Assembly (NCBI GenBank): GCA_024709685.1
Contig: JANJWF010000092.1
Span: forward strand, 1-64,000
DNA: 64,000 nucleotides
DNA from: Thiobacillus sp.
GTDB lineage: Bacteria > Pseudomonadota > Gammaproteobacteria > Burkholderiales > Thiobacillaceae
Direction: 5' to 3'
Of this stretch, positions 8,159-43,779 are shown piece after piece. Made by a program: the position numbers and the translations under genes. The notes beneath the pieces were generated by a model. It saw nothing but the letters and a program-made list of their open reading frames with translations. It was not told the origin of the DNA and made no database searches. The first letter of the stretch is position 1. Every line of letters starts with the position of its first letter.

Positions 8159-8240
8159 CGACATTACTGATTGGCTGCCCCCCCCGCCTCGAGCGGAAAA
8201 TTCGCAGATTAGTGTTTATTAATTTCGTTCGGAGATATCC

Positions 8241-10067: not shown

Positions 10068-10222
10068 ACCAGCGACTTGCGGCGAAGCGCCCTCGTCGAT
10101 TGGCCAGGCAAAGCTCCGCGGTTTGGCGCATGCGGTGCATCGTTTGCCCCTTCACGCCCTCCGCCCGCTTACGCGGAGAGCGCGAGGCAGAAGGCGGCTC
10201 TCCGTTGCAATACCCCTGAAAA

Positions 10223-10250
10223 CAGCCCGGTTGAACGGGCTGCTTTTATT
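10223..10250 (+). terminator. Rho-independent terminator
   Basis: cagcccg-gttgaa-cgggctg stem followed by cttttattt. Confidence 0.8.
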
Positions 10251-10287
10251 TGTACACTTCGGAATGAAGATGCATCAGGAGTGCCTC

Positions 10288-11343
10288 ATGGTCGACAATC
10301 TTTCCGCTCTCATCGACACCGTGCAAAAGAACTGCACCATCGCAGATGCCCGCCATGCACGCGAGATGACGATGTGCACCTTTCTTCTGGAAATGCGCGA
10401 GTATTACCGCTGGGAAATGGAAATCCCCTACGGGGCCCGCCTGCCCAAAGACGAACTCGGCGACTGGCTGAACGCACGCGAAAGCCTATGGGACACGGTC
10501 GAGGAAGAGGATTTCGCACCGCTCCCGCTCAGCGAGGCCGGCATCGATCCATTCGAGGCCGACGACATCAACCGCGCGCTGATCCCACAGGGGCTCGTCT
10601 ACAGCAGCGGGCTGGGCTCGTTCCGCAAGCCCCATTTCGTGCTGGCCGAGCTCAAGCGGGCCGAAGTGCGTGAAGGCGTGCAGGTGCTGGTGGCGGGCTG
10701 CGAATACGCGCGCGACCTGATCGCGCCGCCGGCGGCGATGCGCGGCGGCGCCATCTTCCTGCGCATGGACGCGGTGCGTCGGCTGCTATGGAACAAGTAC
10801 GAAGAATGGCAGTGGAAGGAGAAGGACACTGCGCTGGGGCGCGCATTTGCGCACTACGACTTCGAATGCGACATCGAGCGTGGACTCGACCGCATGGCCG
10901 AAGCCGAAAGCGAGGCAATGATCCTGCATGAGATCGGTGAGGCTCGTGCGGAATCGCTGCTGGGGGACGACTGGAACGCGATGCTCGGCGAGCTAAGCTC
11001 CCGACACGCCGAACTGCTGGTACGCGCGGTACGCGACCACCTGGCCGACTGCCTGGTTACGCTGCCGACGCTGCTCGAGCGCGAAGCGGCCGGCTCGCTG
11101 CATTTCTATCAGGCCAACCTGTCCGGCCTGCGGCGCGCGCTGTTTCCGGCCCTGCCGCAGGCTTATGAAACTTGGCTGGGTAATCGTGATGTCGCCCCCA
11201 TCGCCGGCCTCGTGAGACGCGGTGCGGCTCACTGGCTGGACAAGGCGAGGCAGCTGACCGCCATCTATCATCGCAATCCGGCACAGGGAGATGCGCAGAT
11301 CAACGCACTGGCCGTTGGCGACCTCGCCAGTCTGAAGCTCTAG
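10288..11343 (+). CDS. Conserved hypothetical protein
   Basis: MVDNLSALIDTVQKNCTIADARHAREMTMCTFLLEMREYYRWEMEIPYGARLPKDELGDWLNARESLWD...; AGGAG upstream of ATG 10288 (alternative starts 10264, 10270). Resembles widespread uncharacterised proteins. Confidence 0.7.
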   Translation: MVDNLSALIDTVQKNCTIADARHAREMTMCTFLLEMREYYRWEMEIPYGARLPKDELGDWLNARESLWDTVEEEDFAPLPLSEAGIDPFEADDINRALIPQGLVYSSGLGSFRKPHFVLAELKRAEVREGVQVLVAGCEYARDLIAPPAAMRGGAIFLRMDAVRRLLWNKYEEWQWKEKDTALGRAFAHYDFECDIERGLDRMAEAESEAMILHEIGEARAESLLGDDWNAMLGELSSRHAELLVRAVRDHLADCLVTLPTLLEREAAGSLHFYQANLSGLRRALFPALPQAYETWLGNRDVAPIAGLVRRGAAHWLDKARQLTAIYHRNPAQGDAQINALAVGDLASLKL

Positions 11344-11439: not shown

Positions 11440-14400
11440 CTAAGGCGCGGGTGAAGTCGTATGCCCCAACTGTTCGGCGATTTCGTCGAGCAGTTGCTGC
11501 TCCTGATACGGCTTGCCGAGGTATACATCGACGCCAAGTTCCAGCGCTCGGTTGCGGTGCTTGTCCGCGGTACGCGACGTGATCATGATGATCGGTACCG
11601 TTTTCAGCCGCGCATCGGCGCGCATCAGGCGGGCCAGTTCGAATCCGTCCATGCGCGGCATTTCGACGTCGAGCAGCACCACGTCGGGGATCAGATCATG
11701 CATCTTTTCCAGGGCATCGACACCGTCCTTCGCGCTCTCCACCCGGAAGCCCTCGCGCATCAGCAGACGGGTCGTGATCTTGCGCACGGTGAGCGAGTCA
11801 TCGACCACGAGTACCAGCGGCGCCTGCAGGGCACTGCTGAGTTCGATCGCCTCGGCCGGTGCGGCACGCTCGACCTCGTTGCGCGGCAGGCTCGCCCAGC
11901 GCAGAGCCAGCGGCACCGGGTTGAGGATCAGGATCACGCGCCCGTCGCCGCCTACGGTGGCGCCGGCTACGCCGGTAATGCGCGCCATCTGCGGTCCGAT
12001 GTTCTTGACCACGATTTCGCGCGTGCCCTCGATCACGTCGAGCAGCACGGCAACCTGGCTGGAGCCGCTGGCGAGCAGCGCCACCGGGTTGTAGCGCTGA
12101 ACCTCATGGATCGCTTCAGCATCGCCCAAGAGATGCGGCAGATAGGACAGCGGGTAGGACACCCCACGCCATGTCACTTCGCCCGCTATCATCGCTTTTT
12201 CCAGTTCTTCCGGGCGGAGTTCCAGCACCTGCTGCACCAGCGGTGCCGGCAGCGCATAACTATTTCTGGCGGCCTTGACCATCACCGCCTGTGTCATCGC
12301 CAGGGTGAGCGGCAGGTAGATATGGAAGCTGGTGCCGGTGCCCGGCGTCGAACTGATGTCGATGCGGCCGCCCAGGGCGGCGATTTCACTCTTCACCACG
12401 TCCATGCCGACGCCGCGCCCGGCGACTTCGCTGACGGCTTCGGCAGTGGAGAAGCCGGCAGCAAAGATCAGCTGTGCCAACAGGGTTTCGGTAGGCTCGA
12501 TGCCAGGCAGCAGCAGGCCATTGGCCTCGGCTTTTTCGCGAATACGCGCGTAGTTGAGGCCGGCGCCATCGTCCTTAACAGTCAGCACCATTTCGTTACC
12601 GGACTGGCGCGCGCTAAATACGATTTCGCCGAACTCGGGCTTGTCGGCGGCGCGGCGCGCCTCGGGCGACTCGATGCCGTGCGCCAGCGCGTTGCGCAGC
12701 AAGTGCTCAAGCGGCGCGGTGACCTTTTCCAGCACCGAGCGATCGATATCCAGGTCGCCGCCCTGGATGTCCAGTTGCGCACGCTTGCCCACATCGCGCG
12801 CGGTCTGGCGCACGGTCCGGTACAGTCGCTCGGCCACCGAATACAGCGGCACCATGCGTACCCGCAGCAGATTCTGCTGCAATTCGCGGTTAAGGCGCAT
12901 CTGCTGGATCAGCGCAGCATCCGCCTCGCCGAGGCGCGCCAGCAGGATATGCTGCACGGTGGAAATATCGTTCACGCTCTCGGCGAGGAAGCGAGTGACC
13001 TCCTGGAAGCGGGTGAAGCGATCGAACTCCAGCGGGTCGAACTCTTCCCCGCCACCCTGGGCCTGGAAGGTCGCCTGCATCTGCGATTCGGCCTGGATCT
13101 CGACCTCGCGAATGTGCCCGCGCAGGCGCGTCAGCGCTTCCGTCAATTCGTTGACCTGGCGTTTGAAGCCGAACACTTCGCTCTCGATCCGCGAACGTGC
13201 GATGGCGACTTCGCCGGCCTGGTTGACCATGCGATCGACCCAGTCGGCGCGCACCCGCAGCGTCAGGGCGTTGCTCTCGCGCGTGACCGCGTGCGCCGGG
13301 GCTGCGACATCGGCCGGCGAAGCCTCCGGCGTCGGCTCTGCCTGCTCCGGCATCGGCTCGACCCGTCCAAGAACCGGCTCAATCGGTGCCTCAAGCGGCT
13401 CGGCTTGTTCCTCGGCAAGGTGATCGAGCTCGCCCCGCTTCAGACGGTCGACCGCGTCAGCCATGCGGTCGAACTGCGTCTCAAGCGTCTCAAACACCTC
13501 GGCGCTTGCGGTAAGCTGGCCTTCGATCACGGCGATCACACGCGCTTCCATCACGTGCGTCAGTTCACCCAGGCGCATGGCGCCGACCATGCGCGCGCTG
13601 CCCTTGATCGTGTGCAGGTTGCGTCGCAAGGCGGCACGCGCGGCCAGCCCGCTCGGCGTGGCCTTCCAGGCGCGCAGTTGCGCGCTCGTATCCGGCACCA
13701 GCGCCTCGGCTTCCTCCAGGAAGATCGGCAACAGTTGCGGGTCGATTTCATCGGCCACTTCACGTCGATCGAAGACCGGCGCCGGTGCCGCGGGCCCGAA
13801 ATCCTTGATCAGGGCGTCCATGTCTGGCAGGCCGGACGCCGCCGCTGCGGCGGGTACCTGGCCTGCGGAAAATACTTCAACGGCAGGCTCGATCGACGCT
13901 CCGCTGCCGGAGATTTCGGTGGTCTGTACCTCGAATTCGATGGCAGCCTCGGCAGAAGTGGCCCGTTCGTCTTCCAGTTCGCCCAGGGCCGCGATCAGAT
14001 CGTGTGCCGTCTCGGGCTGCTGCCCGCTTTCGATGGTCGCGATCATCTCGTGCAGACGCGACACGGCATCCTGAACCAGCGGAAGATGTGCGGGCGGCAG
14101 CGGGGTCTGCACAAAACGGTTCCAGTACTGCTCGAGTGCATGCGATAGCTCTGCCAGAACCGTGACACCCGCCGTGCCCGCGATGCCTGCCAGGGTGTGC
14201 ACAGCACGGCGCGCAGGTTCACTGATGGTACTGCCGGCAAGCTCGATGAGGCGGCCGGCTTCTTCCTCCAGTACAGCCAAGCGCTGATGCGCTTCGGCCA
14301 TGAAGATCTCGTATAGCCCACTGGAGAGGCAGCACGAACCAAAGCAGATCTCGTCGGGTTCACGCGGATCGTCGGACGCAGTCGCTGCAGCCGGGCTCTC

Positions 14401-17148
14401 GCCCAGGTCGAATCCATCGAGTACCGGTCGATCGGCAGCAGGCTCGACAGCATCCGACCGGAAGGCATCGAAATGAACCAGCGACTCGCCAACCTCGACG
14501 TCGATCGTCGAGGCAGCGGAAACCGCGTTCCATTCGCCGTCGCCATCGGCAGGAAACTCGATCTCGATGACGGGCAGTGTTTCGGCTGCCGCGCCGCGGT
14601 CAATATCCGTTTTGACCGCAACGATTATTTCGTCTTCAGCGGCCGTTGCGATCGGCGCAGTTTCGATTGCCGCGGACGCGGGCGCACTGTTGTCGGCGAG
14701 CGACTCCGTGTCGAACGGCTGTCCCTGCGCCACACGCTCAACCGCCGCCAGCAGGGGCGACACCGGCAGTGCTGTCGGCTGACGTTCCTGCAGTGCGATC
14801 ACCCATTCCTGAAACACGCCGCGCGCATGCCCGAGCAGACGCAATAGGTCGCTGCTGGCCGCCTTGCTTTCGGCCAGCCAGCCATTCATCAACTGTTCGA
14901 GATGCCATGCGGTTTCACCGAGCTCGGATAGCCCGACCATGCGGCCGCTGCCTTTCAACGTGTGAAATGCCCGGCGGATGACTGTCAGCGATTCCTGGTC
15001 ATCCGGATTGTTCTGGCAGGCATCCGCCGCCTCGCCCATGGTCGCCAACACATCGCCGGCTTCCTCCAGGAAGATGTCCAGCAGGTCCGGTTCGATTCCT
15101 TCCGGTATCGACGTCAGGCCGGTGATCTCGGTTCGAACACTGGTCCGGGTTGCGGAGGCGGCCGGCGTTGTGACGGTCGGCTCCGACAGGGTGAATTCCA
15201 GCGCATCGGCGTGCGGCGGATGCGTCGGCTGGACGGTCGCTGCCGCCGACACGGTATCGGGCTCAAAGGGAAAGAATTCGATGGGGTCGAGGGGCGCCGC
15301 CTCAGCGCGACCGATAGCCTGAGAGGACGCGGCGGTGTCGCCGTGCGCGGTTGGAACAGCACCGGTGGGTTCGGGTGCAACCGCGTCGACTGCGGTAGCG
15401 GGCCGGGGCTCGCCGACTACGTCAAGGAATTTTTTTTTTGTTTCCGCCGTGTCGCCGGGCATGCTGTCGGCATCGACCAGACCGAAATCGGCCAGCACGG
15501 GGTGCAGAATCCTCGCGGCGTCGGCGCGGCCGGCGCAATAGGATTCGATGAACAGCCCGAGACTGGAGAATGCGTCCGCCAGACGCTGCTGGGTTGCCAC
15601 ATCGGGATGCCCATGGCTCACAAACGGCTGCACGATGGTGGCTGCCGCGGCCAGCAGGCTCGCTGCATCGGGCAGTTCGAGCATCGTCAGCGCACCTTGC
15701 GCCTGCTGCGCCAGTCCGGTCAGGCCGGTGAGCGCCTCGCGCTCGCCGGCATCGCGGAAGAAGGCATCCAGCACCTCTTCCATCTGCTTGAGGTTCTGCC
15801 CGACTTCCTGCGCCATTTGGACGAGCATGTCGCGTTCCGCGTCGCGCTGGCTGCCCGAGTCGGTGACACTGGCGGGCATCTCGCTGCCCTCGATGAGCGC
15901 ACGCAGACGCGCCTGCTGGCCCTGGGCGCGCACGGCGAAATCGGCATGCAGGATATCTTCCCGGTCAATCGCGTTCTGCAGGAACAGCAGCGTGGCGGCA
16001 ACCTCCAGATTCTTCTGTTCGCCCGCTTCACCGTCGCGCCTGGCAGCGGCCACTACCGCCAGCCCGTCCAGCAACGGTTTCAGGCCACTCTTCTCGAGCA
16101 TCTGTGCCTGGGGCTGCATGCGCTCGAGCTGGGCCTGAAACTGCTCCAGCTGTCCTGCATTGCCTTCCACGTAGGCGTGCCAGTTGTCGCGTGCGACCTT
16201 CAGGCCGCTTTGCAGGGTCTCCAGCACCGGGCGCATGCGCGCCAGCGTCTCGGGGTCCAGCATGCCGCGGCCCGGCAGATACCGGTCGAGACCGAAGGTC
16301 GAACGGATCTCCGCCGCGCGGCCGCCCAGGGCCTGGCTCTTTGCCACGAAAAACAGCGCATCGCGCATCAGGCGCTCTGCGACCTCCGGCGAGCCCTCTA
16401 TCAAACGGCGCATTTGCAGGTCGACACGGGCGAGCAACTGCTTGACATGGAAATCGGCTTCCACGCCTTGCGCAATCAGGCTGTCGACGAAGCCCACACA
16501 TGCCCACCAGAACGACTGCGAAGCCTGCGACGGCGCGATGTGTTCGATTGCAGCCAGCGCATCGCGCATTCGCCGCAGCCCCTGCTCAGCCTCGATATTG
16601 CGAAGGAAGGCCAGCAGCCCACGCTGGAACTGGCCGCGCGCGGCCTTCACTTCAGCCGTCCGCTCCTCCGGCGTCAGGCCGTCGCTGGCGCGCTTGCCCT
16701 GCACATCGGTACGCAAATCGGGGAAGAACAGTTCGCCTTCGAAAACCCGCTCGGCGCCTTGCAGTTCGCGCAGGCGCTTGTACAGGGGGAACAGCGCCAA
16801 CTCGCCGCTGCCGCGTCCGTCCGCCAGGTCCTTGACCCAGCGTTGCAGGCCTTCCATCGCATTGCGCAGGGCACGCAACAACTCGCTGCTCGCCTGCAAG
16901 CGGTTTTCGTTGACGTCGGCCAGGCACGACTCCAGCGTGCCCGCCAGCGTCGCCGCGCCTTCAAGCCCCACCATTCGCAGCGCCCCGGTCACCTGGTGGG
17001 CGTCGTCACCTGCCAGCCGCAGGGCATTGGTCAGATCGGCATCGATGCTGTAGGCCTGAATACGCCCCAGTGCCGCCTGCAGGGCAGCGTCGATGTCTCC
17101 GCGCACCCAGTTCAGGGGGCCGGTATCGTAATCGAGTAAGGCGCTCAT
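11440..17148 (-). CDS. pilL: Type IV pilus chemosensory hybrid kinase PilL/ChpA (multiple Hpt, CheA-like core, CheW, REC)
   Basis: 1902 aa; several Hpt motifs (FHTLKGSGRMVGL, LHTIKGSARMVGA, VHTLAGIAGTAGV), H-ATPase (LEHLLRNALAHGIES), CheW-like, C-terminal receiver (VLVVDDSLTVRKITTRLLMREGF...DVVLLDVEMPRMDGFE). Confidence 0.93.
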   Translation of the reverse strand: MSALLDYDTGPLNWVRGDIDAALQAALGRIQAYSIDADLTNALRLAGDDAHQVTGALRMVGLEGAATLAGTLESCLADVNENRLQASSELLRALRNAMEGLQRWVKDLADGRGSGELALFPLYKRLRELQGAERVFEGELFFPDLRTDVQGKRASDGLTPEERTAEVKAARGQFQRGLLAFLRNIEAEQGLRRMRDALAAIEHIAPSQASQSFWWACVGFVDSLIAQGVEADFHVKQLLARVDLQMRRLIEGSPEVAERLMRDALFFVAKSQALGGRAAEIRSTFGLDRYLPGRGMLDPETLARMRPVLETLQSGLKVARDNWHAYVEGNAGQLEQFQAQLERMQPQAQMLEKSGLKPLLDGLAVVAAARRDGEAGEQKNLEVAATLLFLQNAIDREDILHADFAVRAQGQQARLRALIEGSEMPASVTDSGSQRDAERDMLVQMAQEVGQNLKQMEEVLDAFFRDAGEREALTGLTGLAQQAQGALTMLELPDAASLLAAAATIVQPFVSHGHPDVATQQRLADAFSSLGLFIESYCAGRADAARILHPVLADFGLVDADSMPGDTAETKKKFLDVVGEPRPATAVDAVAPEPTGAVPTAHGDTAASSQAIGRAEAAPLDPIEFFPFEPDTVSAAATVQPTHPPHADALEFTLSEPTVTTPAASATRTSVRTEITGLTSIPEGIEPDLLDIFLEEAGDVLATMGEAADACQNNPDDQESLTVIRRAFHTLKGSGRMVGLSELGETAWHLEQLMNGWLAESKAASSDLLRLLGHARGVFQEWVIALQERQPTALPVSPLLAAVERVAQGQPFDTESLADNSAPASAAIETAPIATAAEDEIIVAVKTDIDRGAAAETLPVIEIEFPADGDGEWNAVSAASTIDVEVGESLVHFDAFRSDAVEPAADRPVLDGFDLGESPAAATASDDPREPDEICFGSCCLSSGLYEIFMAEAHQRLAVLEEEAGRLIELAGSTISEPARRAVHTLAGIAGTAGVTVLAELSHALEQYWNRFVQTPLPPAHLPLVQDAVSRLHEMIATIESGQQPETAHDLIAALGELEDERATSAEAAIEFEVQTTEISGSGASIEPAVEVFSAGQVPAAAAASGLPDMDALIKDFGPAAPAPVFDRREVADEIDPQLLPIFLEEAEALVPDTSAQLRAWKATPSGLAARAALRRNLHTIKGSARMVGAMRLGELTHVMEARVIAVIEGQLTASAEVFETLETQFDRMADAVDRLKRGELDHLAEEQAEPLEAPIEPVLGRVEPMPEQAEPTPEASPADVAAPAHAVTRESNALTLRVRADWVDRMVNQAGEVAIARSRIESEVFGFKRQVNELTEALTRLRGHIREVEIQAESQMQATFQAQGGGEEFDPLEFDRFTRFQEVTRFLAESVNDISTVQHILLARLGEADAALIQQMRLNRELQQNLLRVRMVPLYSVAERLYRTVRQTARDVGKRAQLDIQGGDLDIDRSVLEKVTAPLEHLLRNALAHGIESPEARRAADKPEFGEIVFSARQSGNEMVLTVKDDGAGLNYARIREKAEANGLLLPGIEPTETLLAQLIFAAGFSTAEAVSEVAGRGVGMDVVKSEIAALGGRIDISSTPGTGTSFHIYLPLTLAMTQAVMVKAARNSYALPAPLVQQVLELRPEELEKAMIAGEVTWRGVSYPLSYLPHLLGDAEAIHEVQRYNPVALLASGSSQVAVLLDVIEGTREIVVKNIGPQMARITGVAGATVGGDGRVILILNPVPLALRWASLPRNEVERAAPAEAIELSSALQAPLVLVVDDSLTVRKITTRLLMREGFRVESAKDGVDALEKMHDLIPDVVLLDVEMPRMDGFELARLMRADARLKTVPIIMITSRTADKHRNRALELGVDVYLGKPYQEQQLLDEIAEQLGHTTSPAP

Positions 17149-17227: not shown

Positions 17228-19378
17228 TCAGGCGAGCTTGAAGCCCGCGATCGAGCTCTTCAGATCCTGCGCCAGCTGTTTCATGCCACCGATCGACTCG
17301 GCCGTCTGCCGGGTACCCGCACTCGTCTGCGCGGAAATCGCCTTGATGTCCTGCATGGTCTCGGCGACGAGCGTGGTCGCTTCGGCCTGGTTCTGCGTGG
17401 CCGCCGAGATGTCTGCGATCAGCGCGGCAAGTGTCTTCGACACGTCGCCGATCTCGGCCAGCGTCTGGCCTGCGGCATCGGACAGCTTGGCGCCCTCGAC
17501 CACGCCCTGGGTCGACACTTCCATCGCCGCCACGGTGTCGTGGGTGTCCGACTGAATGGTTTTCACGATGGCGGCGATCTGCTTGGTCGCATCGGCCGAG
17601 CGTTCCGCCAGCCGCTGCACTTCTTCCGCCACCACCGAGAAGCCGCGCCCGGCTTCACCTGCCGACGCCGCCTGAATGGCCGCGTTGAGTGCCAGCACGT
17701 TGGTCTGTTCGGTAATGTCGGAAATCAGTTCGACGATTTCACCGATCTCCTGCGACGATTCGCCCAGACGCTTGATTCGTTTCGACGTTTCCTGAATCTG
17801 TTCGCGCAGACCGTTCATGCTGGCAATGGCGTTGGCCACCGCCTGCTGGCCTTTTTCGGCGGCCGCGAGGGATTGTTTGGCCACCTTGGCGGACTCGATG
17901 GCGTTGCCCGACACCTGCTGCACCGATTCCGCGAGGCGGACGACGGCGGTCGAAGTTGTCTCGATCTCGTCGGTCTGCCGGCGCGCCGCCTGTTGCAGCG
18001 ATTCGGATACCTGACTGGCCTGGTTGGCTGCCTGGTCCATCTTCAACGTGGCGTTGTTAATCCCGCGCACCAGGCTGCGCAGCTCTTCCACCGTGTAGTT
18101 GATCGAGTCGGCGACAGCACCGGTGATGTCCTCGGTCACGCTGGCGTTGATGGTGAGGTTGCCCTCGGCCAGTTCGCCCAGTTCATCCATCAGGCGCAGA
18201 ATCGCCTCCTGGTTGCGGCTGTTTTCCTCCTCGCTCTTACGGGCCCGCGATTTGGTCTCGTTGATGTTGATCTGACCCAGCAACACCATCGAGACGATGG
18301 CCAGCACGCCGAACAGGGCGGCCAGCTGGTAGCCGAAGCCGCCGACGGCCCGGTATTCCTCTGACAGCTGGCCGGCGTCCCGCAGCAACTCGTCGCTGCC
18401 TGCGAAGAGTTTGTTGGCCGCCACCTTGGCCCGCAGCAGGGACTGCGTGTTGGCAAGCACCTCGCCCACCGCCTCGACCATGTCGGCCATGTTGGTGCCG
18501 AGGTCTTCCAGCGTCAGCATGCTGTCCTCGTTCTGGCTGGCCGCCCCCTCCATCAGTGCCTGCACCGTGTCACGGAACGAGGTTGTGTCCTTTTCCAGCT
18601 GCAGCACGACCTCGGGGTCGATCAGGTCCGACGACAGCAGCAGGTTGGCATTTTTCGGCAAACGCTGACTCAGCATCACGAGATGGTTCGCTCGCGACAC
18701 TTCGCGCAGGCTCGTGCCCCCATCGGCGAGCTGGCTGGCGAGCTGCTCGGACACCTCCTGCAAGTCGATACTCAGGGCATTGATGCGCTTGACGTTTTCG
18801 TTCATCGCCATCAGGTTTTTCTGCTGCGAAAGAATCTGCACGACCAGAGGGGCAAACTGGCCCCACTGGGTGCCGATTTTTCCCAGCGTGTCGCGCGCGG
18901 CGCCACTGGTGGCGGGTACCTCGGCGTCGCCATTGGTCAGTCCGGTCAGGGTCGCCTCGAAATCAGCCTTGCCCTCAGCCAGTTTCTTGAAGGCCGTGGC
19001 ATCGCCGAGCACGGCCCGCTGGGCCGCGAGCGGCAGGCGCTGCGAATACACTTGCAGTTCGCCGGCGCGGTTCTCGTATGCCGTGCGGTTGTCGAGCTGG
19101 ATCGAACTATGGATGGTGAAGCCGGCGGCCAGGAGCAGCGAAACGAGCAGGCTGCCGCCCATGTAGAGATATTGCCGCTCGACCGGAAGATGGCCGATCA
19201 GGGGCATGCGGCCCGGCTCCTTGTCAGCCAGTTTGCGCACGGTCTTCATGATCATGGTGGTGTTCTCGCCCCGATTCCTGCCCGAGGAGCTTCCCGTCAT
19301 GCGGCCTGCGAGCCCTTTGAGGCCAAACATCGTTGTCGCCATATTCATTGCTCCAAACCCTCCGCTCACTGGCGCCAA
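17228..19378 (-). CDS. pilJ: Methyl-accepting chemotaxis protein PilJ
   Basis: TM regions, type IV pili N-terminal sensor, MCP signalling domain ([51 protein letters not shown]); in the pil cluster. The start may lie internally. Confidence 0.92.
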
Positions 19379-19401: not shown

Positions 19402-19923
19402 TTAGTTGCCGAACTGCGCTTCGGCCTTCAGAAAGTCGGCGTTGCCAAGCAATTGCCCGAAATCCATATCACACCAGTTGGCCCCGGCCTCGTCGGCGTA
19501 GTGACGTGCGATCCATGGATATGCCGCAGTCCCGCCACGTAATCGATAGCGGCTGATATTCTTCAGCCCCAGTGTGGCGTGCACCAGAAGGGCCGCGTTC
19601 ACGCCAAAATCGTGGTGCGGTATCAGCAGCCGGCAATCGGCATGGTCGGGCGTCACCCCCTGCCCCATGAAGTCGGCAAAATCGCTCACCGCGTACAGGT
19701 TGCCGCGGATGTTGGCGACGCCGCGAAACCAGCGGCGCGTTCCGGGAACCTTGACGATGGGCGGCAGCGGAACCACCTCCTCGGTATCGGAAAGGCTCAC
19801 CAGCCAGTTCACGTCGCCCACGCGGAAACCCAGCCTGGACCCCGTGTTGTCCCGGCTGGCTGCCGCCTGCAGCTGCTGCGACAGGGCGGTCTGAAATTCA
19901 CGCAGGTTGAATTTCTTGGCCAT
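19402..19923 (-). CDS. pilI: CheW-like protein PilI
   Basis: CheW fold motifs (RLGFRVGDVNWLVSLSDTEEVVPLPPIVKVPGTRRWFRGVANIRGNLYAVSDFADFMG). Confidence 0.9.
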   Translation of the reverse strand: MAKKFNLREFQTALSQQLQAAASRDNTGSRLGFRVGDVNWLVSLSDTEEVVPLPPIVKVPGTRRWFRGVANIRGNLYAVSDFADFMGQGVTPDHADCRLLIPHHDFGVNAALLVHATLGLKNISRYRLRGGTAAYPWIARHYADEAGANWCDMDFGQLLGNADFLKAEAQFGN

Positions 19924-19933
19924 CTCGGTCAGC

Positions 19934-20299
19934 TCAGCCCAGCGCCTTGATCTGCGACAACAGGTCTTCCGGCCTTACCGGTTTCACCAGGTACGCCTTC
20001 GCACCCTGGCGAATTCCCCACACCTTGTCGGTTTCCTGGCCTTTGGTGGTGCACATGATGATCGGAATATGCCTGGTCGCGTCTTCCTTTGAAATCATTC
20101 GCGTCGCCTGATAGCCGTTCATTCCCGGCATCACGACGTCCATCACGATCAAATCGGGCAAAGTCTGCTTGGCTTGCACGACGGCTTCTTCTCCGCTCTC
20201 GGCCATGCTGACCAGGTAGCCGTTCTTGACCAACAACTCAGACAGAAAAAATCGCTCGGTGGGGGAATCATCCACAACCAGAATTCGACTGATCGCCAT
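19934..20299 (-). CDS. pilH: Response regulator PilH
   Basis: ILVVDDSPTERFFLSELLVKNGY...LPDLIVMDVVMPGMNGYQATRMISKD-type receiver; cluster position. Confidence 0.9.
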   Translation of the reverse strand: MAISRILVVDDSPTERFFLSELLVKNGYLVSMAESGEEAVVQAKQTLPDLIVMDVVMPGMNGYQATRMISKEDATRHIPIIMCTTKGQETDKVWGIRQGAKAYLVKPVRPEDLLSQIKALG

Positions 20300-20325
20300 A
20301 ATTTTTATGCTCCTTGGAAAAACTG

Positions 20326-20754
20326 TTACACCCCGGAACAGGCGTGTTCGCGTACCGCCGTCAGCAGCGTGTCCTTGGTAAAAGGTTTGGTCAGGTATTC
20401 GTCCGACCCAACCATGCGGCCGCGTGCGCGATCAAACAGCCCGTCCTTGGATGACAGCATGATGACCGGTGTGCTGCGGTACTTGGCGTTGCGCTTGATG
20501 AGCGAGCAGGTCTGGTAGCCATCGAGACGCGGCATCATGATGTCGACGAAGACCACATGGGGCTCGTGATCGGTGATCTTGGACAGCGCGTCGAACCCGT
20601 CCTGCGCCAGGATGACCTCGCAGCCCGCCTGATTCAGGAAGATCTCCGCGCTGCGTCGAATGGTGTTGCTGTCATCGATCACCATAACCTTGACGCCCTT
20701 CAATGTATCGTTGTCCACACGTTTCTCCGCCAGGATCGCCGGGCGCGACGGCAA
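20326..20754 (-). CDS. pilG: Response regulator PilG
   Basis: VKVMVIDDSNTIRRSAEIFLNQAGCEVILAQDGFDALSKI...PHVVFVDIMMPRLDGYQTCSLIK; cluster position. The true start may be GTG at VDNDTLKG. Confidence 0.9.
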   Translation of the reverse strand: MPSRPAILAEKRVDNDTLKGVKVMVIDDSNTIRRSAEIFLNQAGCEVILAQDGFDALSKITDHEPHVVFVDIMMPRLDGYQTCSLIKRNAKYRSTPVIMLSSKDGLFDRARGRMVGSDEYLTKPFTKDTLLTAVREHACSGV

Positions 20755-40966: not shown

Positions 40967-42850
40967 ATGCACCTCATTTTTGAAGAAGACGGCCATTTCA
41001 AGGCCGGCTCCATCCTGTCCGAAACCGAAGCCACTGCGCAGGTGGAAGCCGCCTCGGGCAAGCGCAGCAAGATCAAGGCGACCGCGATCCTGCTGCGTTT
41101 TGCCGCGCCTTCACCTATCGAGGTGATGACGGAGGCCGAGGCGCTGGCAGCGGAACTTGATGCGGACTTCCTGTGGGAAGCGGCCGGCAGCGACGAATTC
41201 GCGTTCGAGCAATTGGCACAGGAGTACTACGGTCACGCGCCGCGCCCGGCGGAATCCGTGGCGCTGCTGCAAAAGCTGCACGCGTCGCCGATCTTCTTCC
41301 ACAAGAAAGGCAAGGGACGCTACCGGCCCGCCCCCCCCGAGACGCTGGCGGCGGCCAAGGCCGGGCTGGAGAAGAAGCGGCTCGCGGCGGAAAGGCAGGC
41401 ACGGCTGGCGACCGAACTCGCCAGTTTCAGGCTGCCCGAGGAATACGTCTCACTGATCCCGCGCATCCTCATCGCGCCGGACAAGAACACGCTCGAATAC
41501 AAGGCGCTGGAGGATGCGGCGACGGCCACCGGGCTGTCACAGCTGCGACTCATCGAGCGCTGCGGGGCGATTCCATCGACGCTCGACTTTCATCTGGCGA
41601 CTTTCCTGCTGGAATACTTCCCGCGCGGCACCGGCTTCGCCGACGTCACCGAGCCTGCTGTGCTTGATCCAAGCGATCCGCCCCAACTGCCGACGAGCGG
41701 CGTGCGCGCCTTCTCCATGGACGACGAGGCAACCACCGAGATCGACGACGCGCTGTCGGTCGAATGGCTGGACTCGGGCAATATCCGCGTCGGCATCCAC
41801 ATCGCCGCGCCCGCGCTCGGCATCCCGCCCGGCTCGGAACTCGACAAAGTGGCGCGCGATCGGCTGTCCACTGTCTATTATCCCGGCGACAAGATCACCA
41901 TGCTGCCGGAAGCGCTGATCCACCATTACACCCTGGGCGAAACCCACGATTGCCCGGCGCTGTCGCTGTATCTGGAGGTGGCGCCCGATCTACGGATTTC
42001 GGCCACCGAGACCAGGCTCGAAATGGTACATATCGCCGACAATTTGCGCCATGAGACGCTGGAGACGCTGTTCAACGACTACACCCTGCGTAATCCGGAC
42101 GCGCCGGATTACCCCTACCGCCGCGAACTCGAGTGGCTGCGCGACTTCACCGCCGTGCTGGAGGCCGGACGCGGCAAGGCCGACCCGGTCGATCGCATCG
42201 ACTACAGCTTCAAGCTCGAAGGCGAACGCATCAGCATCGTGCCGCGCAAGCGCGGCAGCCCGCTCGACCAGGGGGTGTCGGGACTGATGATCTTCGCCAA
42301 CGCGCACTGGGGCGGCTGGCTGGCGGAGAAGCGGGTGCCCGGCATCTACCGCGCGCAGGCCAACGGCAAGACACGTATGACCACCGCGCCCGACCCGCAC
42401 CAGGGCCTGGGTGTCGACCAGTACGCGTGGTCGACGTCGCCCCTCAGGCGCTATGTCGACCTCGTCAACCAGCGCCAGCTGATCAGCCTGGTACAGGGGG
42501 CCGATCCGGTCTACCCGCCGCGCAGCGAACAGTTGTTTGCGACAGTGCGCGACTTCGAGTTGACCTACGATGCCTACCACGACTTCCAGCGCCGGCTGGA
42601 GCGCTACTGGATGCTGCGCTGGCTGATCCAGGAGAACGTCAGCGAAGTGACCGCGAGCGTCATTCGCGAGGACCTGGTGCGTTTTGACAATCTGCCGCTG
42701 GTGACGCGCGCACCTTCTGCGATGGGTGTCGCGCCCGGCGCAAAAGTGCGGCTCGCGATTTCAGACATCGACCTGCTCGACATCGACTTTCACGCCGAAT
42801 ATCTGGAAACCGTGACGGCAACGCCTGACAGCACCGTCGTCCTTCCGTAG
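40967..42850 (+). CDS. RNB-domain (RNase II family) exoribonuclease
   Basis: VRAFSMDDEATTEIDDALSVEWLDSGNIRVGIHIAAPALGIPPGSELD...TVYYPGDKITMLPE...YAWSTSPLRRYVDLVNQRQL. Confidence 0.92.
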   Translation: MHLIFEEDGHFKAGSILSETEATAQVEAASGKRSKIKATAILLRFAAPSPIEVMTEAEALAAELDADFLWEAAGSDEFAFEQLAQEYYGHAPRPAESVALLQKLHASPIFFHKKGKGRYRPAPPETLAAAKAGLEKKRLAAERQARLATELASFRLPEEYVSLIPRILIAPDKNTLEYKALEDAATATGLSQLRLIERCGAIPSTLDFHLATFLLEYFPRGTGFADVTEPAVLDPSDPPQLPTSGVRAFSMDDEATTEIDDALSVEWLDSGNIRVGIHIAAPALGIPPGSELDKVARDRLSTVYYPGDKITMLPEALIHHYTLGETHDCPALSLYLEVAPDLRISATETRLEMVHIADNLRHETLETLFNDYTLRNPDAPDYPYRRELEWLRDFTAVLEAGRGKADPVDRIDYSFKLEGERISIVPRKRGSPLDQGVSGLMIFANAHWGGWLAEKRVPGIYRAQANGKTRMTTAPDPHQGLGVDQYAWSTSPLRRYVDLVNQRQLISLVQGADPVYPPRSEQLFATVRDFELTYDAYHDFQRRLERYWMLRWLIQENVSEVTASVIREDLVRFDNLPLVTRAPSAMGVAPGAKVRLAISDIDLLDIDFHAEYLETVTATPDSTVVLP

Positions 42851-42879: not shown

Positions 42880-43779
42880 ATGGTTCACGCCGCTTCCGCC
42901 CCCCCCCTCGCCGCACCGTCCAGGCAGGACACGCGCATGGCATTGGCCCTGCTGGCGTCGGCGGCCGTTCACGGCATGCTGCTGTCGACCCAGTTCGTGC
43001 TGGTCAATCCGCGCCTGTTCGAAGACCACAGCCTGCCGATGGAAGTGGTCCTGACCAACGCCAAGAGCCTGGAGTCTCCGCTCAACCCGGATGCACTGGC
43101 GCAGGTGAACCTGGCCGGTGGCGGCAATACCGATGAGGACCGACGGCTGAAGAGCCCGCTGCCCGCCAGCAGCACGACCCAGACGGGCAGCGACAGCGAC
43201 GAAGCTGCCATGCAGGCGCGCGTGGCCGAGCTGGAGCAGCAGGCGAGGACCCTGCTGAGCAAGCTGCAGTCCGACGCGCAATTACGGGACGAGCGGCAGG
43301 CCGCGCCGGCGGCGCCGGCCCAGCCCGCCATCAACGCCAGCCAGCTCAGCCATCAGGCGCGTGAAATGGCGCAATTACAGGGCCAAATCTCGCAACAGTG
43401 GGACGAATACCAGAAGCGCCCCAAACGCGCCTTCGTCGGCGCCAACGTCCGCGAATACGCGTTTGCGCGCTATGTCGAGGACTGGGTCGCGAAGGTCGAA
43501 CGCGTCGGCAACCTGAATTATCCGGAAGCCGCACGGCGCCAGGGAATTTACGGCAGCCTCAAGCTGACTGTTTCGATCTACGCAGACGGCCGCATCGAGA
43601 AGATCGAGGTGGACAGCTCGTCCAGATCCAAGATTCTCGACGCTGCGGCGATCAAGATTGTCGAACTCGCCGCACCGTACGCCGCCTTCCCCGACGATAT
43701 GCGCAGCAAGACCGACATTCTGTCGATCACGCGCACCTGGACCTTCACCCGCTCGGACCAGCTCGTCGGCACTGACTGA
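42880..43779 (+). CDS. TonB-family energy transducer protein
   Basis: N-terminal TM (MALALLASAAVHGMLL), coiled middle, C-terminal YVEDWVAKVERVGNLNYPEAARRQGIYGSLKLTVSIYADGRIEKIEVDSSSRSKILDAAAIKIVELAAPYAAFP. Confidence 0.87.
   Translation: MVHAASAPPLAAPSRQDTRMALALLASAAVHGMLLSTQFVLVNPRLFEDHSLPMEVVLTNAKSLESPLNPDALAQVNLAGGGNTDEDRRLKSPLPASSTTQTGSDSDEAAMQARVAELEQQARTLLSKLQSDAQLRDERQAAPAAPAQPAINASQLSHQAREMAQLQGQISQQWDEYQKRPKRAFVGANVREYAFARYVEDWVAKVERVGNLNYPEAARRQGIYGSLKLTVSIYADGRIEKIEVDSSSRSKILDAAAIKIVELAAPYAAFPDDMRSKTDILSITRTWTFTRSDQLVGTD

Follow-up and report, generated by a model that had tools for sequence, protein, structure and literature searches.

Introduction

To our knowledge, few cellular genes use programmed slippage to produce a truncated isoform, dnaX and copA being the cases known to us. 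Such genes are hard to find, as the short product contains no new coding sequence to compare (Baranov et al. 2005, PMC1088944). In dnaX of Thermus thermophilus, RNA polymerase (RNAP) slips on a run of nine A's and the gene yields tau and gamma; the threshold for slippage by bacterial RNAP is about 9 A's (PMC5009743, PMC1088944). E. coli dnaX relies on -1 ribosomal frameshifting at A_AAA_AAG, and slippage there has been linked to the presence of a single tRNA-Lys(UUU) (PMC5009743). In E. coli copA, a -1 frameshift gives an N-terminal copper chaperone. Efficient -1 frameshifting is usually stimulated by a downstream RNA structure and an upstream SD-like sequence. Such stimulators are usual rather than obligatory: for one proven IS case, none has been established (PMC4066793). 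A relative of another kind is FimL of Pseudomonas, which is homologous to the N terminus of ChpA (PMC3535393) and which acts together with ChpA in bringing PilG to the pole (PMC10519157).

Here we describe a locus that resembles each of these systems in part. It lies in the window, by which we mean the whole stretch of 64,000 nucleotides analyzed from a Thiobacillus draft genome, and consists of a run of ten A's (A10) within a chpA/pilL-like gene. As in T. thermophilus dnaX, the run is long, in frame, and contained in a single ORF, stops in both other frames are close, and a short N-terminal isoform is expected. The gene and pathway differ, however, and chpA has ten A's, a -1 frame stop fixed at the third codon, and relatives with shorter, ribosome-type versions of the site. 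The heptamer is of the same class as that of E. coli dnaX, with which a single tRNA-Lys(UUU) is shared, and chpA of the sister genus has the identical A_AAA_AAG followed almost immediately by a -1 stop; unlike at E. coli dnaX, neither a stem-loop nor an SD-like element was found at the chpA site. In common with copA, a frameshift would free an N-terminal domain that is a separate gene in other bacteria, although the slippery site is another one, the copA product is much smaller, and its pathway is unrelated. The predicted isoform also shares length and homology with FimL-type proteins, which share the ChpA N terminus, but it would be made from chpA itself and keeps histidine 51 (H51).

The main text of the surveys of bacterial recoding that we consulted in the open-licence literature names neither chpA/pilL nor chemotaxis nor Thiobacillus, and we found no paper in that literature that joins Thiobacillus, frameshift, and chpA. 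The deep species sampling now available gives comparative evidence of nucleotide-level selection on a truncating slippage site.

A Pil-Chp kinase gene with an in-frame A10 tract

The ORF at 11440 to 17148 (minus strand) encodes a protein of 1902 aa with an N-terminal Hpt block followed by further Hpt, HATPase, CheW, and receiver domains; its Pfam matches are Hpt (four), H-kinase_dim, HATPase_c, CheW, and Response_reg. Upstream on the same strand lie genes for a pilJ-like chemoreceptor (17228 to 19354; Pfam PilJ and MCPsignal), a CheW-like (PilI) protein (19402 to 19923; Pfam CheW), and two single-domain, PilH/PilG-like response regulators (19934 to 20754; Pfam Response_reg at 19934 to 20299 and 20326 to 20754). 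With multiple Hpt domains, HATPase, CheW, and receiver in one protein, and with PilJ, CheW, and response-regulator genes adjoining, the ORF is the Pil-Chp kinase ChpA/PilL. Its convergent neighbor at 10141 to 11343 (plus strand) encodes a DUF6866 protein with both N and C domains.

The preliminary description placed the tract inside pilL/chpA near codon 570 of 1902, and the ORF and its in-frame reading agree. The T10 at 15430 to 15439 of the plus strand is A10 on the coding (minus) strand, read as GAA ACA AAA AAA AAA TTC CTT GAC, so that the run comprises the third base of codon 570 and codons 571 to 573. Translation of the window gene also upheld the claim that a slip in either direction truncates the kinase. 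Deletion of one A gives TKKNSLT*, ending at a TAG (15417 to 15419, minus strand) in the +1 frame, which an A9 or A12 transcript would enter. Addition of one A gives TKKKIP*, ending at a TGA (15422 to 15424, minus strand) in the -1 frame, the frame of an A11 transcript or of a -1 ribosomal shift.

In the source assembly (a draft of 2.55 Mb, 79% complete), a pattern search found A10/T10 only once, in chpA. This single run is not significant by itself, because about 0.5 A10/T10 runs per genome are expected from a first-order Markov model derived from the window. One A10 in 2.5 Mb of genome is about what chance would give, but conservation of the run in 52 species is far beyond chance. Other homopolymers in the window are a C9 at 42899 to 42907 and two C8 runs, at 41331 to 41338 and 8178 to 8185.

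Conservation of the site in Thiobacillus

The source genome belongs to the genus Thiobacillus in the GTDB sense, which includes T. thioparus DSM 505 and T. denitrificans RG. A genus-wide search found one or a few A10 runs per genome, with chpA almost always among their locations. At the site, all 52 species read nCA AAA AAA AAR Tnn nnT GAn in identical codon phase. The preliminary description would have been contradicted by synonymous interruption of the tract in close relatives; the run is an uninterrupted A10 in 50 species, and in the other two it is A9G, ending in AAG, with the heptamer A_AAA_AAG surviving. An in-frame heptamer of the form X_XXY_YYZ (A_AAA_AAA or A_AAA_AAG) is therefore present in 52/52 species, in agreement with the view of the tract as slippage prone. 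Within these 52 chpA genes, an in-frame A_AAA_AAR occurs at this site only, and there is no second A run of 8 or longer. By pattern search, the candidate recoding motif C-A10-TTCCTTGA (15422 to 15440, minus strand) occurs in 51 of 56 genomes of the genus and in 0 of 61 genomes from 11 other genera of the family, and a reversed control gave 0. We left out as counterexamples G026, which has only a 110-residue chpA fragment, and G060, an 89% complete draft with no match.

The stops are conserved as well. A TGA stands at exactly the third codon of the -1 frame in all 52 species; for background positions the share is 2.3%. In the +1 frame, too, a stop is reached within 15 codons in 52/52, but the place of this stop varies whereas that of the -1 stop is fixed. 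The locus has two features expected of a transcriptional slippage site, a run of about 9 or more A's or T's (9 to 10 A's in 52/52) with nearby stops in both nonzero frames, and also the conserved -1 frame stop characteristic of programmed -1 ribosomal frameshifting. In the window gene and those of G034 and G015, the protein around the tract has been lost or changed, and A10 and the -1 TGA are retained.

We considered whether the protein rather than the nucleotide sequence is conserved, with a Lys-Lys-Lys motif required and its AAA codons due to chance or bias. KKK is indeed invariant in the 52 species, but AAA makes up only 36% of the Lys codons in these chpA genes, and its share at the three tract columns is 100%, 100%, and 96% of species, the next best of 34 Lys columns reaching 67%. 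Moreover, the flanking constraints cross amino acids. The codon before the run encodes Ala, Thr, or Ser and is always nCA, with 15 changes inferred by Fitch parsimony at its first base and 0 at its second and third. The second codon after the run encodes Leu, Ile, Val, or Ala and always ends in T, and the next codon always starts with GA; where this second codon is Leu, it is CTT in 48 of 48 cases, against a CTT usage of 6.1%. That nCA and nnT GA persist across amino acid changes argues that selection at the tract acts on nucleotides, and counting changes on the tree lessens the concern that species are nonindependent samples. In addition, three species of another family (f35, below) encode QKK at the site. 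A purely protein-level requirement seems to us very improbable.

Least credible of all is that the A10 is an assembly artifact or serves the opposite strand, for instance as an antisense terminator. The draft state of the source genome would allow for an error, but the site was found independently in about 50 assemblies, including those of the cultured T. thioparus DSM 505 and T. denitrificans RG and the single-contig G011 and G024. The tract is phase-locked to the chpA frame, and on the opposite strand no GC-rich hairpin is apparent by eye ahead of the T10. What the genes themselves show is the signal, its frame, the stops that await a shift, and the nucleotide-level conservation of these elements.

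Related sites outside the genus

At the homologous site, three species of the sister genus read GCA AAA AAG CTT GAA, with KKA* in the -1 frame, and one species of another genus of the family has AGA AAA AAG. Among the other genera of the family that were examined, only g28 and a single g36 species have the site. When 399 genomes of the order were scanned for the pattern, 4 genomes outside Thiobacillus had matches. Those in G412 and G442 are not in chpA and were set aside as chance; those in G235 and G273 are in chpA and led to a distant family, f35. There, 12 of 15 species have an in-frame slippery A_AAA_AAR at the homologous chpA site (A10 in 5, A9G in 3, A8G in 1, and CAA AAA AAG in 3), and in 9 species a -1 stop follows at the third codon, once as TAG rather than TGA. 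The f35 genes have a GC content of about 52%, so single A runs are less striking in them, and it is the position and the stop that count. In the sister genus and in the f35 species with 7 A's (3) or 8 (1), the run is shorter than the roughly 9 A's associated with transcriptional slippage. Families f3, f11, f15, f22, f23, f27, f29, f33, f34, f45, f47, and f50 have ChpA N termini without a slippery site at the homologous place. Because the other family genera examined and the other order families sampled lack it, the site is not essential to ChpA.

A probable programmed recoding site

Kept exactly, in frame, and beside a stop, A10 looks like a built-in frameshift signal and not like a random mutational switch. 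We consider it highly probable that the tract is a programmed recoding (frameshift) site, similar to that of dnaX, that yields a short second protein. RNAP would stutter on A10 and add an A, and/or the ribosome would slip back one base on A_AAA_AAA or A_AAA_AAG; a fraction of translation would thereby enter the -1 frame and be ended two codons later by the conserved TGA. From chpA, the cell would thus obtain full-length ChpA and an N-terminal isoform of about 575 aa ending in KKKIP. Since the tract is fixed in length and the heptamer survives where it ends in AAG, selection appears to preserve its slipperiness at the level of expression.

The preliminary description had inferred an ON/OFF or graded switch of twitching chemosensing. 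As phase variation, replication slippage at A10 would turn chpA on or off between cells. A run this long can be hypermutable, and both indels truncate the kinase. Phase-variable tracts usually vary in length, however, and between species this one is fixed, at exactly A10 in 50 of 52 and A9G in the other 2, and every species is in the ON frame. In related lineages the site persists with only 6 to 7 A's, and A_AAA_AAG, the only form in related genera, is too short for phase variation; nor would such a switch require a stop fixed at the third codon. We therefore regard phase variation as decidedly improbable. The locus is a warning against automatically classing A-rich slippery sites of GC-rich genes as phase variation.

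That slippage takes place in the cell, how efficient it is, and which machine slips are points that we infer. Whether RNAP or the ribosome slips, the short protein would be identical (...KKKIP*), and the two processes may operate jointly; the chances that we assign to each below overlap with that of programmed recoding as a whole, of which they are the two possible machines.

We see close to an even chance that slippage is mainly transcriptional, as in T. thermophilus dnaX, with off-by-one mRNAs giving the short product. The tract stays at 10 A's (9 in A9G), which reaches or exceeds the RNAP threshold, and both nonzero frames are closed close by. The usual ribosomal stimulators were not found: the consensus RNA structure downstream of the tract has only -1.9 kcal/mol over 19 species, single-sequence z-scores range from near 0 to -1.1, and an SD-like sequence upstream occurs in 10/52 species against a background of 15%. 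We rejected both the stem-loop and the SD-like stimulator as conserved elements. Furthermore, ribosomal slipping alone would not explain the preference for A10, because A_AAA_AAA is less shifty than A_AAA_AAG for E. coli ribosomes (PMC5009743). Against mainly transcriptional slippage, runs of just 6 to 7 A's, below the usual length for RNAP, occur with the heptamer intact in the sister genus and in three f35 species, and the stop with a fixed place is that of the -1 frame, the +1 stop being variable.

The main process may instead be -1 ribosomal frameshifting or sliding on the AAA Lys codons, as in E. coli dnaX, a possibility that we rate as serious, if distinctly short of even. An in-frame A_AAA_AAR with a nearby stop is common to all positive lineages, including those with the shorter A_AAA_AAG. 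A complete Thiobacillus genome has one tRNA-Lys, with anticodon UUU, and on iterated AAA the ribosomes of E. coli slide (PMC4363877). The missing conserved stimulators count against this option, which also leaves the strict A10, in place of A_AAA_AAG, unexplained.

The predicted N-terminal isoform

The slippage product would be an N-terminal ChpA isoform of about 575 to 605 aa. From the window gene (15422 to 17148, minus strand), it would comprise codons 1 to 573 plus Ile-Pro, about 575 aa, a prediction that draws on translation, on an all-helical block in a modeled orthologue, and on the existence of this block as a separate gene elsewhere. In the AlphaFold model of the T. denitrificans orthologue (mean pLDDT 76, pTM 0.37), the all-helical block extends to about residue 556 and is followed by a weak linker (557 to 577) and then a small helical unit, in the second helix of which lie the tract-encoded residues 601 to 603. 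The lineage of the window gene, with G034 and G015, has lost (at 15100 to 15430, minus strand) a helical hairpin segment that other ChpA proteins of Thiobacillus have after the tract. The tract is at the end of the N-terminal block, a natural protein boundary, and this placement supports a separate N-terminal product of about 570 aa, as suggested in the preliminary description, as the likely purpose of the site.

The first 110 or so residues of the block resemble CheA P1/Hpt domains. An Hpt domain at residues 27 to 104 (16837 to 17070, minus strand; Pfam E=8.6e-08), within the short isoform, contains the invariant H51. A PDB fold search with the N-terminal model returned only partial, CheA P1-like matches, none with E <= 0.001, so this search gave no homologue of known structure for the block as a whole. 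Besides Hpt, neither Pfam nor NCBIfam contains an N-terminal family matching it.

In some genomes the block is a gene of its own. At the split chpA loci L333 and L332 (genomes G533 and G661), it is a gene of 556 or 558 aa, with pilJ on one side and, on the other, a kinase gene of 1210 to 1229 aa without the block. In a third genome it is a 560-aa ORF between enoyl-CoA hydratase (ECH) and NUDIX genes, an arrangement like that of P. aeruginosa fimL. By tblastn, the ChpA N-terminal block is thus homologous to stand-alone ORFs of 556 to 560 aa, as expected of FimL (about 560 aa). In 10 near-complete Thiobacillus genomes, we found no second copy of the block, only chpA and one fragment with E=0.03.

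Because the block is a separate gene elsewhere and has no second copy in Thiobacillus, slippage may supply a FimL-like partner. The isoform, the functional reading of which is based on homology, would then work like FimL, providing a FimL-type partner in genomes without a fimL gene. We say "works like" only, as no gene of its own for FimL was found in the 10 Thiobacillus genomes. Nor would the isoform simply be FimL, because the FimL-like ORF L334 has, by eye, Lys at the aligned position where Thiobacillus keeps H51; L333 and L332 keep the His. In our judgment, the chances are even that one gene encodes both the Pil-Chp kinase and its own FimL-like partner, in a ratio set by the exact A10. This would be a dnaX-style source of isoforms within a chemosensory system, retained across two families whose proteins are as little as about 35% identical. 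Should the short protein be produced, recoding would be the means by which the Pil-Chp pathway fixes how much kinase there is per N-terminal partner, and the roles of FimL-type proteins and of the ChpA N terminus could be tested through silent codon changes in cultured environmental strains of Thiobacillus.

Additional observations on chpA

In the draft genome G017, a TAA interrupts chpA (L210/L078) after roughly codon 1240, reflecting either a disrupted gene or an assembly error. At codon 4 of chpA (17137 to 17139, minus strand), Leu is encoded by TTA in 42/42 species with Leu at that position, although TTA makes up 1% of Leu codons. This suggests another nucleotide-level constraint, in the initiation region or in an upstream regulatory element.
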